Positions 11,295 to 17,024 of a stretch of 64,000 nucleotides of DNA are shown here, piece by piece. Position numbers and translations under genes: made by a program. The stretch comes from an uncultured Bacteroidota bacterium (GTDB taxonomy: Bacteria; Bacteroidota; Bacteroidia; Chitinophagales; Chitinophagaceae): positions 1-64,000 of the forward strand of contig CAIOIZ010000116.1 of assembly GCA_903858475.1 (NCBI GenBank). The letters are read 5' to 3'. The stretch's first letter is position 1. Each line of letters starts with the position of its first letter. The notes beneath the pieces were generated by a model that ran no database searches, was not told where the DNA came from, and saw only the letters and a list, made by a program, of their open reading frames with translations.

Positions 11295-11867
11295 ATGAAA
11301 GAGCCGTTAGTTTTTAAGTATGTGCTGCCATTTATTCAATGGTATGCACTCATGATACTTTTTGCGCTTGGCATAGATTATCTCTTACATCATTTTAATT
11401 TAGTTTTCATTGGCATTTACTTGGGATATTCAGGTACTACCCTCATTTTGGGTTCACTGCTGTATTCTTTAAGAAAAAGAAAAATTATTCAATCAGGCTC
11501 ACCAAAAAAATTGCTTCAACTGCATGAATACGGTTCCTGGGTCGGCGCAGTAATGGTCTTGGTACATGCGGGCATCCATTTCAATGCATTACTACCCTGG
11601 CTGGCTATTTTAATGCTGCTCATTACAGTTGCCAGCGGATTGATTGGAAAATACTTATTGAAAAAAGCAAATGAAACACTCAAATTAAGAAGGAGCGAAC
11701 TTATTCAATCTGGCCTTAGTGTGGAAGAAACGGATAAAGAATTATTTCTGGATTCCATCACAGTAGACCTTATGAAAAAATGGAGAATTGTGCACATGCC
11801 CATTACTTTACTATTGGCCTTCCTAGTATTGATGCATATTATTTCTGTACTAATGTTTAGCAAATGA
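11295..11867 (+). CDS. Cytochrome b-type membrane protein with two H-x13-H pairs
   Basis: A 190-aa integral membrane protein with about five hydrophobic helices. His77/His91 and His167/His181 form two H-x13-H pairs, the arrangement by which helices of b-type cytochromes ligate two stacked haem b groups. His95 is an extra histidine on the same helix as His91. Its stop overlaps the next start (ATGA), coupling it to a ten-haem cytochrome c. The likely role is the quinol-facing or electron-transfer membrane subunit of a small respiratory complex (inference from haem ligands plus context). No standard gene symbol applies. Confidence 0.75.
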   Translation: MKEPLVFKYVLPFIQWYALMILFALGIDYLLHHFNLVFIGIYLGYSGTTLILGSLLYSLRKRKIIQSGSPKKLLQLHEYGSWVGAVMVLVHAGIHFNALLPWLAILMLLITVASGLIGKYLLKKANETLKLRRSELIQSGLSVEETDKELFLDSITVDLMKKWRIVHMPITLLLAFLVLMHIISVLMFSK

Positions 11868-12760
11868 AACAAACACTTATTTTGGGAATCATTGTTGTTT
11901 GCATAGCATGCACTTACCTGTATCCTCATACAATGATTAATCCGGGTGAATTAACTGCAGGCCACCAACACTTAAAAAATAATTGCAGCGCCTGTCACAC
12001 CCCATTTTCAGGTATTTCCAATACCAAATGTATTGCTTGCCATAACCCTGCCAATATTGGCAAAGACAGTACAGGGAAATTGGATAGCAGTAAGCAAAAA
12101 ATATTATTTCACCAGGGGCTAATGGAACAATCTTGTAGCTCCTGCCATACCGACCACAAAGGCATTGCGCCAACAGTTAGCCTATCTAATTTTAATCACC
12201 AGCAATTGTCTTCAGCCGTTTTTAATAATTGCAATAGCTGCCACAACAAACCAGTTGATAGCTTGCATCAATCACTCAGTAATAGTTGCATCAATTGTCA
12301 TAACACACAGGGCTGGAAATTGAATGTTGTTTTCAACCATGATATGATACAAGGAGCGGATAAAAATAATTGTGCTGCTTGCCATCAAAAACCCAATGAC
12401 AATTTTCACCAATCTACCTCTGCCAATTGCAGTCAATGCCATAGCAACAACAAATGGCTGCCCTCCAGTTTCGACCATTCCGCCTATTTTCGGTTAGATG
12501 CCAATCACCAAACTACCTGTAATACTTGTCATACTAATAATAATTACAAAGTATATACCTGTTATAGCTGCCATGAACATTCGCCCAGCAATACCATTGC
12601 TAAGCACAATGAAGAAGGCATTTACAATATTAGCAATTGTGCATCCTGCCATAAAAGTGGTAGTGAACATGATATCAACCGCAATGGGAAGGAACAACAA
12701 AATATGAATAAGGAGGATTTAAAGAAATTAAATAATTACTCCAAAGAAGAGGATGATTAA
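11864..12760 (+). CDS. Decahaem c-type cytochrome
   Basis: A 298-aa exported protein with an N-terminal hydrophobic anchor or signal. It has ten CxxCH haem-binding motifs starting at residues 41, 56, 91, 123, 142, 170, 189, 219, 233 and 259 (CSACH, CIACH, CSSCH, CNSCH, CINCH, CAACH, CSQCH, CNTCH, CYSCH, CASCH). Many other His residues precede the motifs and could act as distal ligands, as in cytochrome c3/c7-like chains. The tail is lysine/glutamate-rich and haem-free. The 4-nt overlap with the cytochrome b gene implies co-translation. It probably carries electrons from that subunit across the periplasm. Donor and acceptor are unknown. Confidence 0.9.
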   Translation: MKQTLILGIIVVCIACTYLYPHTMINPGELTAGHQHLKNNCSACHTPFSGISNTKCIACHNPANIGKDSTGKLDSSKQKILFHQGLMEQSCSSCHTDHKGIAPTVSLSNFNHQQLSSAVFNNCNSCHNKPVDSLHQSLSNSCINCHNTQGWKLNVVFNHDMIQGADKNNCAACHQKPNDNFHQSTSANCSQCHSNNKWLPSSFDHSAYFRLDANHQTTCNTCHTNNNYKVYTCYSCHEHSPSNTIAKHNEEGIYNISNCASCHKSGSEHDINRNGKEQQNMNKEDLKKLNNYSKEEDD

Positions 12761-12887
12761 GCATCAATGACTGCCAGCAGTAAGTGGTTTACAAACTAGA
12801 ATTTGTAATAAGATTCCAATACGCTTTGTAATTTCGATGTCGCATAGCGAATTATTCATCACTATTAATTCACGCTAAAATATTATT

Positions 12888-13382
12888 ATGGATCAATTGC
12901 ATCTTCACCTTATCATTACACACCTGCCTATCTTCGGTTCAATTTTGGGAGCTTTTGTACTGGGCTATGCCCTCCTAACAAAATCTCATCACACAAAAAA
13001 AGCTGCTTATTTTTTAACCCTATTTTCAAGTTTAGGAGCTTGTGTTTCCTACGCAACTGGTGAAGCTGCAGAAGAAGCTGTAGAAAAAATTCCTGGTGTT
13101 GCAGAAAGCCTTATTGGTCAGCATGAATCTGCTGCCGTCTATGCCTTATTTGCTTTAATTGGATTAGGACTATTAGCTTTAATAGGCCTTGGGCTTTCGT
13201 ACAGCAAAAGCAAGTATTCGAAGTCAGTAGCAACCATTACCCTATTGGTTTCTTTGGTTAGTTTTGGACTAGTTGCCTGGACAGGATACCTAGGGGGTAA
13301 AATTCGACATACGGAAATTAACCCTGGGAACCTCAATAGCCCTAGTAATAACCATGAAAAGGAAGAAAAAGAGAGCGAATAA
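12888..13382 (+). CDS. DUF2231-like four-helix membrane protein
   Basis: A 164-aa protein with four hydrophobic helices and histidines at the membrane edges: MDQLHLHLIITHLPIFG at the N-terminus and GYLGGKIRHTEI after the last helix. This pattern resembles DUF2231-type membrane proteins, in which conserved His residues have been suggested to bind haem or metal. The tail is acidic and low complexity. It lies 127 bp after the decahaem cytochrome on the same strand and may act with it, but co-transcription is unproven. Confidence 0.6.
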   Translation: MDQLHLHLIITHLPIFGSILGAFVLGYALLTKSHHTKKAAYFLTLFSSLGACVSYATGEAAEEAVEKIPGVAESLIGQHESAAVYALFALIGLGLLALIGLGLSYSKSKYSKSVATITLLVSLVSFGLVAWTGYLGGKIRHTEINPGNLNSPSNNHEKEEKESE

Positions 13383-13550
13383 TATTGCTTGAAAAATTCT
13401 TATAATTTTTACACACTCCTACTCACCCCCTGTTCACTATAGTGGACTGTTTCAAATAGAAATCACCTAAATAGCAGTGGCAAATTTATAATTTAACAAA
13501 TGCACTGACCTAAATCAGTACATTTTATTATGTTTACTCGAAATAGCCAT

Positions 13551-13558
13551 TAACTTTG
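13551..13558 (+). promoter_or_regulatory. -7 box, 4 nt before GTG start
   Basis: TAACTTTG matches the TAnnTTTG consensus. Only taca separates it from the GTG of the HYC_CC_PP gene, so transcription should start at or next to the start codon. Confidence 0.5.
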
Positions 13559-13562
13559 TACA

Positions 13563-13946
13563 GTGAAAAAGGGTTTACTGATATTAGTATTATGCTGTTA
13601 CGCCTTGGCTTCTTTTGGCGTTAGCCTTAACTATTTTTATTGTTGTGGTAAATTAAAATCTGTTTCCCTTACTCCTACTACCAAAAAACAAAAATGTTGC
13701 AAAACAATGGCCAAAAAAGGCTGTTGTAATAATAAGACCATTACCTATAACTTATCGATCGATCAAAAGGACCATAGCCAGATGGCTTATCATTTTGAAT
13801 CGCCGATGAGCAACCTTGATTTACCAGATCAACTCTATAATTTACCTTCTTCGTCTACTATAATTTCGAAAAATAGTATTGACAAAAGACCACCCCCAAA
13901 TACCGCAATTGACCGAAGTGTACTTTATTGCGTTTTCAGAATTTGA
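13563..13946 (+). CDS. HYC_CC_PP family small exported protein
   Basis: A 127-aa protein with GTG start and a signal-like N-terminus (KKGLLILVLCCYALASFG). It carries the order of motifs that names the Bacteroidota HYC_CC_PP family: an aromatic-Cys-Cys motif (NYFYCCGK), paired cysteines (QKCCKT and KGCCNNK) and a late proline motif (RPPP). The cysteine clusters suggest binding of a soft metal such as copper (inference). It lies directly upstream of two HMA-domain genes on the same strand, which supports a metal-handling role. The start is placed 4 nt after a TAACTTTG box, so the message is probably leaderless. Confidence 0.7.
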   Translation: MKKGLLILVLCCYALASFGVSLNYFYCCGKLKSVSLTPTTKKQKCCKTMAKKGCCNNKTITYNLSIDQKDHSQMAYHFESPMSNLDLPDQLYNLPSSSTIISKNSIDKRPPPNTAIDRSVLYCVFRI

Positions 13947-14019
13947 TAATTTACCATCTTAGCTTTTTTGCCGACAAGTACGGCTACCATCATTTAATTA
14001 TCAAATAAAATATTATAAA

Positions 14020-14385
14020 ATGAAAACGTTTAAAACAATTATCAGCAGCATTATTGCCATTTGCTTCTTTACCAATGTACAAGCTCAAACAGGCACTACC
14101 GATTCTATCAAAGTATATGGAGAATGCGGCATGTGTAAAAGTCGAATTGAAAAAACTGCTTTAAAAGTAGAAGGCATTGCAACCGCTAATTGGAGCGAAA
14201 GCAGCAAAATGCTAACTGTTGTGTACGATTCATCAAAAACCGATTTGCTCGACAATTTGCAAAAGAAAATTGCAGCTGTAGGGCATGACACGGAAAAATA
14301 TACTGCACCTGATAAAGTGTACAATAAATTACCCGGCTGCTGTCATTACGATAGAAAAGTAGTACCTACTCCAATTAAAGACTAA
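14020..14385 (+). CDS. Secreted heavy-metal-associated (HMA) domain protein
   Basis: A 121-aa exported protein (signal ending VQAQT) consisting of one HMA/ferredoxin-like domain. The metal-binding loop is GECGMCKSRIE (Cys36, Cys39), a variant of the MxCxxC loop. A conserved C-terminal LPGCCHYDR adds two more cysteines and a His. The same pair of motifs (CxxCKTRIE and LPACCHYKR) appears in the N-terminal region of the TonB-dependent receptor encoded next, so the two are paralogous. Likely a periplasmic copper or similar metal chaperone (inference). Confidence 0.8.
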   Translation: MKTFKTIISSIIAICFFTNVQAQTGTTDSIKVYGECGMCKSRIEKTALKVEGIATANWSESSKMLTVVYDSSKTDLLDNLQKKIAAVGHDTEKYTAPDKVYNKLPGCCHYDRKVVPTPIKD

Positions 14386-14399
14386 ACAGTATCACTCAC

Positions 14400-14436
14400 A
14401 TTCCTGCAATGATGTCTCTGATATCATTGCAGGAAT
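14400..14436. repeat. Perfect 14-bp inverted repeat between HMA and receptor genes
   Basis: ATTCCTGCAATGAT (14400-14413), a 9-nt loop, and ATCATTGCAGGAAT (14423-14436) can form a perfect hairpin. No T-tract follows, so it is not a standard terminator. It lies 14 nt before the preferred receptor start and contains the ORF-track start codons, which argues against those starts. Confidence 0.75.
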
Positions 14437-14450
14437 TCAATTCATTCGCA

Positions 14451-17024
14451 ATGAAAAAATATATTGTGATGCTGCTTTGTGCTGTCATCAACCTTTCGGC
14501 CATTGCACAAAAGAAAAATAACAAGACCGAAACATTTAAAGTTTGGGGTAATTGTGAGCAATGCAAAACAAGAATAGAAGCTACCCTTTCCAATATAGGT
14601 ACCTATAAAGCTAAATGGAGTATTGCTAGTAAAATGCTGACTGTTTCATACGATAGCCTTAAACTAAATACCAGCTTAATTAAAAAACAATTGGCACTAG
14701 TAGGGCATGACAACGATGCATTTCAAACAGACGAAACTACCTATCAGCAATTGCCCGCCTGCTGCCATTACAAAAGATATCAAAGATCGGCAGCTACTAT
14801 TGGCAAGGATAGTCTTGGCAGGGACCAATTAGAAGAAGCGGACCCAATGGCAATGATAACAGGCATTGTATTGGAAGAAAACAAAAAGGGGAAATTTTTC
14901 CCCCTCAGTGGTGCTACTATTCGTGCAATTCATTCAAAAGAAACGGCCAGGTCGGATAGCAATGGTGTATTTCGACTAAGAACAATGTTGCCAGATGCCA
15001 TGATTGTAAGTTATGTTGGGTTTACTGCAGACACGATTAATATCAGTAATGCTGCCGAAATAAAAGTGATTTTAAAAAACGCTTCTTCCAATACTTTAAA
15101 AGAAGTGATTTTGCAAGGCAGGGCAGTATCCACCTATGTATCTTCCATCAGCACTTTGAATACCTTAACCATCAGCTCCAGAGAATTAGTAAAAGCAGCC
15201 TGTTGTAACCTCAGTGAAAGTTTCGAAACCAGTCCTTCAGTAGATGTGAGTTATGCCGATGCCGTAACGGGTATAAAACAAATTCAACTACTTGGACTAT
15301 CCGGAAATTATACTCAATTATTAACAGAGAATACCCCCGAAATCAGAGGACTGGCAGGAAGTTTTGGCCTTACATTTATCCCTGGTCCATGGATGGAAGG
15401 AATACAAGTAACCAAGGGGGTGGGCTCAATCGTGAATGGATATGAAAGTATCGCTGGTCAAATTAATATTGAAGAGAAAAAACCTGACAAAGCGGAACAA
15501 TTATTTATCAATGGCTATGTGAATGATATGGGAAGATTGGAAACAAGTATTGATTTTGCTAAAAAAATAAATAACCAATGGAGTACTGGATTATTAACGC
15601 ATGTGAATGGAGTCAGCAACAAAATAGATGATAATAAAGATGGCTTCATGGATATTCCCACTGGTCGTCAATACAATTTTATCAATCGTTGGAAATACAT
15701 GGATTCCAAAGGCATCATTGCACAGATAGCTATTAAATATTTGAATGATCAACGACAAGCAGGTGAAATGAAATTCAATCCGAGCATCGACAAATTCACT
15801 ACCAATAAATACGGAGCTGGTATACAGGTAGAACAAATGGGCATCACTGCAAAACTGGGTTATGTATTTCCTAATTCAAAATATAAAAGCATTGGCTTCA
15901 TCGTTGCTGCCAATCAATACAAGAATGATTCTTATTATGGCCTAACCGCCTATACCGGTAAACAAGCGACCCTATATGGGAACCTTATTTATCAATCGAT
16001 CATTGGCAGCACTGCACATAAATTTCGTACTGGCATGAGTTTTACCAATGAAAATTTTACAGAGCATTTTAATGCAGCCTTGTACAAGAGAAAAGAAATA
16101 GTGCCTGGTGCATTTTTCGAATATACATATACGGCAGCAAAGAACTTTAGTGCTATTGCAGGGTTAAGAGTAGACCACCACAATCAATATGGCTGGATTT
16201 TTACACCGCGCGTACATCTTAAATACGATATCAGCACGACTACCAATCTTCGTTTTTCAGCAGGATCGGGTTTTCGGTATGCCAATATTTTTGCAGAAAA
16301 CAGTGGCGTATTTGTAAGCGCCAGGCAGTATTCATTGGTGCCGCCCATTAATACATATGGGTACGGGTTAGATCCTGAAAAGGCTTGGAATTATGGTTTT
16401 AATTTAATTCATCATTTTAAAATAAACCAACATGCAGGCAGTATCAGCTTCGATGCGTACAGTACCCGCTTTCAACAACAAACAGTAGTTGACTTGGATA
16501 ACAATCCACAAAAAATTCTTTTTTATAATTTAAAAGGAAGGTCCTATTCCAATAGTTTGCAGGCGGAATTAAACTATGAAATCATCAAAAGGCTCGACAT
16601 TCGATTGGCTTATCGCTGGTTGGATGTAGTTACCAATTATATGGGTACCGAAAGAGAAAAGCCCTTGGTGGCCCGTAATCGAGCATTTGTAAACCTTGCT
16701 TACGAAACTGGCAATCACTGGAAATTTGATTATACCCAGCAATGGTTTAGCAGAAAAAGACTACCCATTACGACTGGAAATCCAATTGGAAAACAATTGA
16801 GCACTTACGCTCCCGCATACACGCAAATTAGTGCGCAGGTGTCTAAGTTATTTGGTAAACACTTCGAACTATACGTAGGATCAGAAAATATTGGCAATTT
16901 TACACAAGCGCAATTATTTATTGATGGCAATACGCCCTTTAGTCCCTATTTCGATGGATCGATGATTTGGGGCCCCGTTAATGGACGGGTATTGTATACC
17001 GGATTTCGATTTAAAATAAAATAA
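14451..17024 (+). CDS. TonB-dependent receptor with N-terminal HMA domain
   Basis: An 857-aa outer-membrane receptor. After the signal peptide (MKKYIVMLLCAVINLSAIAQ) comes an HMA domain with Cys35/Cys38 (GNCEQCKTRIE) and LPACCHYKR, then a carboxypeptidase-regulatory-like domain (about 125-225), a plug with VTKGVGSIVNGYESIAGQIN, and a beta-barrel ending in the aromatic strand RVLYTGFRFKIK. The preferred start, 14451, is 14 codons inside the track ORF and just beyond a hairpin that covers the track start. Fusion of a metal-binding domain to the periplasmic side of a receptor suggests import of a soft metal or metal complex, working with the two upstream proteins (inference). Confidence 0.85.
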   Translation: MKKYIVMLLCAVINLSAIAQKKNNKTETFKVWGNCEQCKTRIEATLSNIGTYKAKWSIASKMLTVSYDSLKLNTSLIKKQLALVGHDNDAFQTDETTYQQLPACCHYKRYQRSAATIGKDSLGRDQLEEADPMAMITGIVLEENKKGKFFPLSGATIRAIHSKETARSDSNGVFRLRTMLPDAMIVSYVGFTADTINISNAAEIKVILKNASSNTLKEVILQGRAVSTYVSSISTLNTLTISSRELVKAACCNLSESFETSPSVDVSYADAVTGIKQIQLLGLSGNYTQLLTENTPEIRGLAGSFGLTFIPGPWMEGIQVTKGVGSIVNGYESIAGQINIEEKKPDKAEQLFINGYVNDMGRLETSIDFAKKINNQWSTGLLTHVNGVSNKIDDNKDGFMDIPTGRQYNFINRWKYMDSKGIIAQIAIKYLNDQRQAGEMKFNPSIDKFTTNKYGAGIQVEQMGITAKLGYVFPNSKYKSIGFIVAANQYKNDSYYGLTAYTGKQATLYGNLIYQSIIGSTAHKFRTGMSFTNENFTEHFNAALYKRKEIVPGAFFEYTYTAAKNFSAIAGLRVDHHNQYGWIFTPRVHLKYDISTTTNLRFSAGSGFRYANIFAENSGVFVSARQYSLVPPINTYGYGLDPEKAWNYGFNLIHHFKINQHAGSISFDAYSTRFQQQTVVDLDNNPQKILFYNLKGRSYSNSLQAELNYEIIKRLDIRLAYRWLDVVTNYMGTEREKPLVARNRAFVNLAYETGNHWKFDYTQQWFSRKRLPITTGNPIGKQLSTYAPAYTQISAQVSKLFGKHFELYVGSENIGNFTQAQLFIDGNTPFSPYFDGSMIWGPVNGRVLYTGFRFKIK

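Follow-up and report, generated by a model that had tools for sequence, protein, structure and literature searches.

Organization of the locus

The window analyzed here, 64,000 nucleotides from an uncultured Bacteroidota bacterium of the Chitinophagaceae, carries three intact genes on its plus strand, as an open reading frame check of the window confirmed. The first encodes an HYC_CC_PP-type protein (hereafter HYC) of 127 aa with a GTG start (13,563–13,946), the second a stand-alone secreted HMA protein of 121 aa with a CxxC motif, a loop-5 His and a C-terminal CCHY motif (14,020–14,385), and the third a TonB-dependent receptor of 857 aa with a fused HMA domain (14,451–17,024; the reading frame opens at 14,409, and 14,451 is the likeliest start). 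This order is kept in relatives, where the HMA unit is either separate or fused; the genus Flavobacterium, for instance, possesses HYC next to the receptor. Sequence comparison indicates that the module is most likely a phylum-wide Bacteroidota gene set for copper import; we found no literature on an HYC-HMA-receptor module in Bacteroidota.

Four nucleotides before the HYC start codon, TAACTTTG (13,551–13,558, plus strand) matches the Bacteroidota −7 box TAnnTTTG, so that the transcript should be leaderless or possess only a very short leader. Boxes beginning at −24 to −8 precede 48 of 123 HYC genes versus 45 of 1261 other genes (p = 1e-29). Upstream of this promoter lies a perfect palindrome, ACTGACCTAAATCAGT (13,504–13,519), a possible regulator site. 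As a conserved FNR/CRP-like operator it was rejected: it is not kept in relatives, its genome matches are near background, and its general pattern, at up to 2 mismatches, occurs 36 times in the window against 32.7 expected, i.e., without enrichment. A 17-bp hairpin between the HMA and receptor genes (14,400–14,436, plus strand; z = −6.9) has no U tract and is single-copy in the genome; its sole Rfam match, mir-357, was judged to be due to chance.

The HMA domains and the receptor

The original prediction held that the secreted protein and the receptor N-terminus share a CxxCKxRIE loop and a CCHY motif. Both motifs were located in the alignment of the two (40% identity over 106 residues, E = 3e-26), the respective cysteines being C36/C39 and C107-108 in the stand-alone protein and C35/C38 and C104-105 in the receptor. 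The loop-5 His (GHD) is likewise common to both, as in Synechocystis ScAtx1. The stand-alone protein exceeds the Pfam HMA (PF00403) cut-off of 24.8 bits (30.2 bits, E = 6e-7); the receptor domain scores 15.6 bits, below this cut-off, and is homologous to the stand-alone protein and possesses the CxxC. In the AlphaFold2 model, it is predicted to fold in the order beta-alpha-beta-beta-alpha with a pLDDT of about 95; alignment and predicted structure delimit it to residues 24–109 (14,520–14,777, plus strand). Furthermore, among homologues collected without a motif filter, the Cys motifs are kept: of the stand-alone copies, 84/88 have the CxxC and 82/88 the C-terminal CC, and for fused copies the counts are 58/61 and 61/61, respectively. 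The module HMA shares its fold and CxxC with CopZ/Atx1/MerP chaperones and Cu-ATPase HMA domains; unlike the CopZ/Atx1/MerP chaperones, it is predicted to be periplasmic, carries an extra C-terminal LPxCCxY, and occurs in a form fused to an outer-membrane receptor.

The receptor is built of a signal peptide, the HMA domain (24–109), a linker predicted to be disordered (113–130), a CarbopepD_reg_2 domain (136–220), the plug (239–336) and the barrel. The HMA domain thus stands ahead of the CarbopepD/plug part, in line with the periplasmic placement originally proposed. Matches above cut-off to Pfam TonB_dep_Rec (barrel; 83.6 bits, E = 3e-23) and Plug (24.1 bits, E = 5e-5) assign the protein to the TonB-dependent receptors (TBDTs), and its AlphaFold2 model (mean pLDDT 89) aligns with BtuB, Cir and OprC, OprC structures matching at 15–16% identity. 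It has the TBDT fold in common with the copper TBDT OprC/NosA (PMC8610252). An OprC-type copper site, with CxxxM in the plug and HxM in the barrel, was rejected, as neither motif is conserved in the receptors; what distinguishes them from OprC/NosA, besides the N-terminal HMA domain, is a Cys pair near the plug start, C251-C252 (AACCNLSESF; 15,201–15,206, plus strand). This pair is invariant in 65/65 receptors, fused or unfused, and is accompanied by no other conserved Cys in plug or barrel among the receptors compared. By sequence profile, the nearest solved receptor is XusA (9gbc, E = 7.5e-18), a siderophore TBDT of Bacteroides thetaiotaomicron with the same CarbopepD-plug-barrel layout, but with neither the CC pair nor an HMA domain.

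Comparison of receptor orthologues, as suggested earlier, revealed fused and unfused forms across Bacteroidota, the unfused receptors adjoining a stand-alone HMA gene. Of the proposed "duplication and fusion", the homology of the two HMA domains stands, but the HMA tree rules out that a local duplication was the source of both: the stand-alone HMA of the window clusters with stand-alone HMAs of other genera (support 100/95) and the fused one with other fused HMAs (100/97). The two forms hence represent two old lineages. Fused receptors fall into at least two separate groups, which indicates that fusion, or loss of fusion, happened at least twice, a double-HMA version being among the products. 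On plasmid records, only four receptors were found, all distant and unfused.

Metal identity

Copper had been named as the likeliest substrate, and both gene context and profile evidence back it. The best matches of the HMA profile are Cu-ATPase HMA domains and CopZ, with MerP weaker. In two lineages, a copper ATPase (CopA) above the TIGR01511 cut-off is encoded within the module or immediately behind it, and a gene for a heavy-metal-binding (HMBD) protein sits between HYC and the receptor in three loci. Among 53 HYC loci picked by the family model alone, independently of the receptor, the next gene encodes CusA, HMA, HMBD or receptor in 48 (CusA 21, HMA 14, receptor 11, HMBD 2); four loci have some other gene next, and one has no gene within reach. 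The CusA neighbours are of the CusA/CzcA type (E ≤ 1e-113), a model that by itself does not separate Cu from Zn/Co.

We also considered that the module serves another soft metal or a chelate (zinc, nickel, mercury or silver). HMA domains likewise serve Zn, Cd and Hg, there are weak matches to ZntA and MerP models, and the receptor does not have the OprC ligands. However, copper proteins lead the profile ranking, the neighbours are CopA, CusA/CzcA-type and HMBD proteins, and the Zn and MerP equivalog cut-offs are not reached (MerP, TIGR02052: 26.5 bits versus 92.55), which makes this alternative improbable. The module HMA also stays below the CopZ equivalog cut-off (24.0 bits versus 91). Copper is thus the best-supported metal, as judged from profile matches and neighbour genes.

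The HYC protein and the stop-to-start stem

The HYC protein scores 27.7 bits against NCBIfam NF047658 (HYC_CC_PP), just short of the cut-off of 28 (E = 3e-6); 95 of 96 aligned members, the window protein included, match this model at E ≤ 0.001. It consists of a signal peptide, a Cys head (C27, C45, C54, C55) predicted to form a small beta-hairpin, an unstructured tether and a PPP at 110–112, with about half of the chain unstructured. Although mean identity in the family is only 19%, C27, C54 and C55 are invariant, C45, P110 and P111 nearly so, and spacing is narrow (CC-to-PP 54–59 residues, PP-to-end mostly 15–17). No solved relative was found. Membership in DUF2946 was rejected: the 25 Pfam families recorded across the 96 members do not include PF11162, which matches neither the window protein nor, in a phylum scan, any HYC locus, and the CXXC and C-terminal RAPP typical of DUF2946 are missing, the PP of HYC having no preceding RA and lying 15–17 residues from the end.

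At its 3' end, the HYC gene is predicted to base-pair with the sequence around the HMA start. The 5' arms (13,930–13,951, plus strand), supported by RNA folding, a phylum-wide test and covariation, comprise C-terminal codons (13,930–13,938, pairing with 14,021–14,029) and the surroundings of the stop (13,941–13,951, pairing with 13,996–14,006); in the fold, the 3' arms (13,996–14,029, plus strand) take in the region where HMA translation begins, start codon included. The region 13,925–14,060 folds at −22.5 kcal/mol (z = −2.9), and no known RNA family in Rfam covers the stem. Across the phylum, a stem is present at 49/106 HYC junctions (46%) versus 48/432 control gene pairs (11%; p = 1e-14), about half of the individual HYC junctions having no significance on their own. 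Enrichment persists when clustering at 40% identity reduces the set to 46 clusters (p = 1e-8), in a later set of HYC junctions (23/28, p = 4e-16) and at HYC-CusA junctions (9/20, p = 2e-4). Moreover, 5 of 13 pairs are altered on both sides, a covariation score attained by 0 of 500 shuffles; such compensatory changes support the stem. This pairing is a new observation.

Could the pairing merely reflect high AT content, common descent or the presence of intrinsic terminators? The intergenic regions have 28% GC, and the control junctions that pass likewise speak for caution. Yet the test uses dinucleotide shuffles, AT-rich controls pass at just 9.7%, the signal survives divergent clusters, the later set and two-sided changes, and the stem has no U tract, its 3' arm lying directly before the start codon. 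We consider an artefact very improbable. The stem is so simple that plain translational coupling is possible.

Discussion

With invariant cysteines, a PP at fixed spacing, a near-leaderless promoter and the stem, HYC resembles two known copper leaders. CruR heads a copper TBDT operon, CruR-BfrG/CrtA of Bordetella pertussis (PMC9426467, PMC12914433), and is, like HYC, a small exported Cys-rich leader with a PP near its end. CruR, however, is described there as a DUF2946 protein with CXXC, an RAPP 3 residues from the end, and Rho termination, whereas HYC belongs to another family and has its PP 15–17 residues from the end and a stop-to-start stem; for CrtA, we found neither an HMA protein nor a fused domain described in these reports. 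In Rhodobacter capsulatus, a stem masking the cutO start controls cutO downstream of CutF, an exported leader with a Cys motif and a proline-rich end, as in HYC; unlike HYC, CutF is a DUF2946 protein with CxxxC, its target is a multicopper oxidase, and copper induces (PMC9973294).

HYC is the first gene of copper operons, and a stem in the mRNA covers the start of the gene that follows it, both traits of a leader cistron. The upstream Cys-rich protein had been thought to fit a metal-binding role; its cysteines are indeed conserved, but it is probably a leader cistron controlling the next gene via the RNA stem rather than simply a third metal carrier. We propose that the last HYC codons and the bases after the stop mask the start of the next gene, which would be well translated only if ribosomes finish reading HYC. 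The exported chain, with its Cys head, fixed-length tether and PP, would sense copper before its release from the ribosome and thereby tune the downstream genes. Since its PP lies 15–17 and not 3 residues from the C-terminus, a PP-stalled ribosome alone would not cover the stem. The sign of regulation is not deducible, as HYC heads import and efflux operons alike.

Alternatively, HYC may be an ordinary periplasmic copper binder that is co-produced with the receptor and the HMA protein, the stem setting their ratio without any sensing. Its signal peptide, conserved cysteines and predicted hairpin head would suit such a role, and coupling stems need no sensor. Low identity with just Cys and PP kept, a half-unstructured chain and fixed CC-PP-end spacing favor a nascent-chain device instead. 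Furthermore, HYC heads CusA efflux as well as uptake genes, and in one family an unrelated Cys-rich protein ending in WQPPK occupies the HYC slot, together with a stem. We regard the ordinary binder as a serious but less likely account. That HYC_CC_PP proteins are phylum-wide copper-sensing nascent-chain leaders, acting through the stop-start stem on import (HMA/receptor) and export (CusA) genes and once replaced by the PPK protein, comes close to an even bet.

For the transport part, we propose that the receptor carries copper, free or chelated, over the outer membrane using TonB energy. Cu(I) would then be accepted and passed on both by the free HMA protein and by the fused HMA domain, which a flexible linker holds at the N-terminus on the periplasmic side. 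Each would bind it via CxxC, probably with help from the C-terminal CC and the loop-5 His. That the fused domain is instead a FecA-type gate or signalling domain, or a copper sponge protecting the receptor, has a small chance: the disordered linker tethers it far from the barrel, and for unfused receptors the free HMA protein suffices, but no anti-sigma/sigma pair adjoins the module in the loci inspected, and the equivalence of fused and free arrangements suggests one job. Altogether, the locus is best explained as an autonomous unit for copper acquisition that brings its own control device, a reading to which we assign a probability of about 0.5.

Outer-membrane copper acquisition is poorly known, and in the open-access literature, whose full-text coverage is incomplete, we found no copper importer whose receptor includes a metallochaperone domain. 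A 2025 survey did not find copper leaders of the RAPP/RGPP type in Bacteroidota (PMC12992588); if our proposal is true, HYC leaders would fill this gap with post-transcriptional copper control. A widespread, unexplained protein family would gain a function if HYC senses copper, and DUF2946, HYC_CC_PP and Cys-rich PPK proteins would then be three kinds of leader that share one solution.

Results

The three genes of the module are present and intact on the plus strand and encode the HYC_CC_PP-type protein (HYC, 13563-13946), a secreted HMA protein (14020-14385) and a TonB receptor (14451-17024). The receptor frame opens at 14409, yet its start is most likely 14451, which a proper signal peptide follows. 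Pfam assigns the receptor a TonB barrel, a plug and a CarbopepD_reg_2 domain, its fused HMA domain scoring under the cut-off. In the AlphaFold2 model (mean pLDDT 89), residues 24-99 confidently adopt an HMA-like succession of elements; a disordered linker (113-130) follows, then CarbopepD, plug and barrel. In the established layout of Bacteroidota receptors, the N-terminal part of such an arrangement is periplasmic. Since the domain order is signal peptide, HMA, CarbopepD and plug, the fused domain is placed in the periplasm, in line with the original prediction. A near-perfect 17-bp hairpin (14400-14436, z -6.9), which has no U tract and is single-copy in the genome, occupies the HMA-receptor gap and could set different HMA and receptor levels. 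Upstream and co-directional, 11295-13382 encodes a weak cytochrome b561-like protein, a multiheme c-type cytochrome and a DUF2231-like membrane protein, a cluster that is likely to form a respiratory unit of its own.

The HYC stop region pairs with the start region of the HMA gene on the plus strand. One pair of arms joins 13941-13951, around the stop, to 13996-14006, and a second pair joins the C-terminal codons (13930-13938) to 14021-14029, covering the HMA start codon (-22.5 kcal/mol, z -2.9). The stem was first spotted by eye in the junction list and afterwards tested with a fixed, simple score that uses only bases before the start codon, a pass being p <= 0.05 against a junction's own dinucleotide shuffles; gene calling was mechanical, and some start codons, with them some intergenic lengths, may be wrong. 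By this score 49/106 HYC junctions passed, against 48/432 other co-directional junctions (p 1e-14). The excess persisted when the junctions were reduced to 46 clusters at 40% protein identity (p 1e-8) and when the controls were AT-rich junctions, 9.7% of which passed. Junctions from Flavobacteriaceae and Weeksellaceae-like loci formed a later, largely new set (locus G264 repeats an earlier genome); 23 of 28 passed (p 4e-16), as did 9/20 junctions with a different downstream gene, CusA (p 2e-4). With each arm handled on its own in 14 Flavobacterium-type sequences, pairing holds in 90% of cells and 5 of 13 pairs show two-sided changes; none of 500 shuffles reached this covariation score, and slid registers drop to 29-48% pairing. 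In one family the HYC slot is filled by an unrelated Cys-rich protein with the C-terminus WQPPK[IL][AG], whose gene likewise runs into a stem across the start of the receptor gene; only 1/3 such loci pass the single-locus test. Altogether, the stem is very probably real.

HYC proteins share a mean identity of only 19%, but C27, C54 and C55 never vary and C45, P110 and P111 seldom do. In most members 54-59 residues separate the last CC from PP, and PP mostly lies 15-17 from the end. The predicted structure of the window protein (pTM 0.40) has a signal helix and a beta hairpin that bears Cys residues, while its second half is disordered. In 48/123 HYC genes versus 45/1261 other genes (p 1e-29), a TAnnTTTG box begins between -24 and -8 relative to the start codon, most commonly at -12 or -13; with the box so near, the message should have little or no untranslated leader.

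The module's metal is probably copper, as argued by the HMA profile ranking, the neighbouring genes and the genes that follow HYC. Among solved structures the profile matches Cu-ATPase HMA domains and CopZ best; its matches to Zn-ATPase and MerP are weaker. A triple HMBD protein lies between HYC and receptor at three loci, and a P-type ATPase that exceeds the copper cut-off of TIGR01511 is encoded within the module of a Maribacter and immediately 3' of it in another lineage. When HYC genes are collected with the model of their own family, the next gene encodes a CusA/CzcA-type efflux pump at 21 loci, HMA at 14, this receptor at 11, HMBD at 2 and another protein at 4, with nothing within reach at 1; on inspection, two of these last five (L259, L276) have a CusA-like next gene. 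Part of this sample, roughly its first 15 receptor loci, overlaps loci already known from the receptor search.

We lean towards regarding the fused HMA domain as the metal acceptor. Among homologues gathered without a motif filter (88 stand-alone, 61 fused copies), CxxC is kept in 84/88 and 58/61, the C-terminal CC in 82/88 and 61/61, and the loop-5 His in 58/88 and 53/61, bearing out the expected conservation of the Cys motifs. A third HMA-like protein of the same genome (L248:682-1161, contig C143) no longer has the second CxxC cysteine (VQCEEGK) but keeps the LPACCK tail. In the receptor plug, C251-C252 is invariant in 65/65 sequences, fused and unfused alike, an alignment with no other conserved Cys or Met; H384 is nearly invariant. 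The pair could be a stop on the metal's way out to the HMA domain. XusA, the solved relative closest in sequence, does not have it, and the copper ligands of OprC, CxxxM-HxM (PMC8610252), are not present in this family; counted from the Ton box, the CC pair, near the plug start, would lie about 70 residues N-terminal of the OprC cysteine. A more distant receptor group (L109, L110, L111, L112) has CNVCNTGD in the plug instead of AACCNLSE; at L109, HYC and HMA genes precede the receptor by a few genes. Near barrel residues 384-403, a conserved DxNxDGFxDxP loop resembles a calcium-binding loop.

The original prediction held that the two HMA domains share motifs through duplication and fusion. They are indeed homologous (40% identity, E 3e-26) and have CxxCKxRIE, CCHY and also a loop-5 GHD in common. 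A recent local copy is ruled out by the HMA tree, where the stand-alone domain clusters with its stand-alone counterparts from two further genomes (support 100/95) and the fused one with other fused HMAs (100/97); since each groups with its own type, the pair is old. As anticipated, the fused form recurs in relatives: 30 receptors at 80 named loci are fused and 50 unfused, the former including Terrimonas, Segetibacter, Pinibacter, Sphingobacterium and Flavobacterium branchiophilum. About 37/200 genomes of the same family have the fusion, and a similar number have the same receptor with a match beginning only past query residue ~130. When the N-terminus is left out, the receptor tree requires the fused state to change three times, at least two of these changes being forced by well-supported branches. 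With unfused receptors, a stand-alone HMA gene usually lies between HYC and receptor, or, in Flavobacteriaceae, directly 3' of the receptor. In several matches across the phylum one in-frame stop interrupts HMA-to-receptor read-through, an arrangement that can be a starting point of a fusion. One receptor group (L086, L087, L088, L118) carries two tandem N-terminal HMA domains and is preceded, in HYC's place, by the Cys/His-rich WQPPK[IL][AG] protein. The fused receptor at locus L084 has a long His/Asp-rich repeat linker (HEGHDHDDHEGHDH, residues ~115-165) between HMA and CarbopepD. At L188:5216-5944, L176:5174-5923 and similar Flavobacteriaceae loci, the gene between HYC and receptor encodes HMA fused to a four-TM-like membrane domain, perhaps an inner-membrane partner.

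Discussion

Known copper leaders offer two precedents. CutF reportedly acts by stem opening with export of the nascent chain (PMC9973294); CruR is reported to act by arrest at RAPP that copper relieves (PMC9426467), and the arrest has been demonstrated in vitro (PMC12992588). HYC belongs to a different family, and its PP lies further from the protein end; a survey reported no RAPP/RGPP copper leaders in Bacteroidota (PMC12992588). A ribosome that has reached the HYC stop would be some 72 residues from the CC pair, roughly the combined length of its tunnel and the translocon, and the pair could thus sample the periplasm. Most likely, ribosomes finishing HYC would open the stem and allow translation of the next gene, and how often this happens would depend on whether the nascent HYC chain carries copper. 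We put the probability that HYC, the first gene of both import and efflux operons, is a copper-sensing leader at about 0.5.
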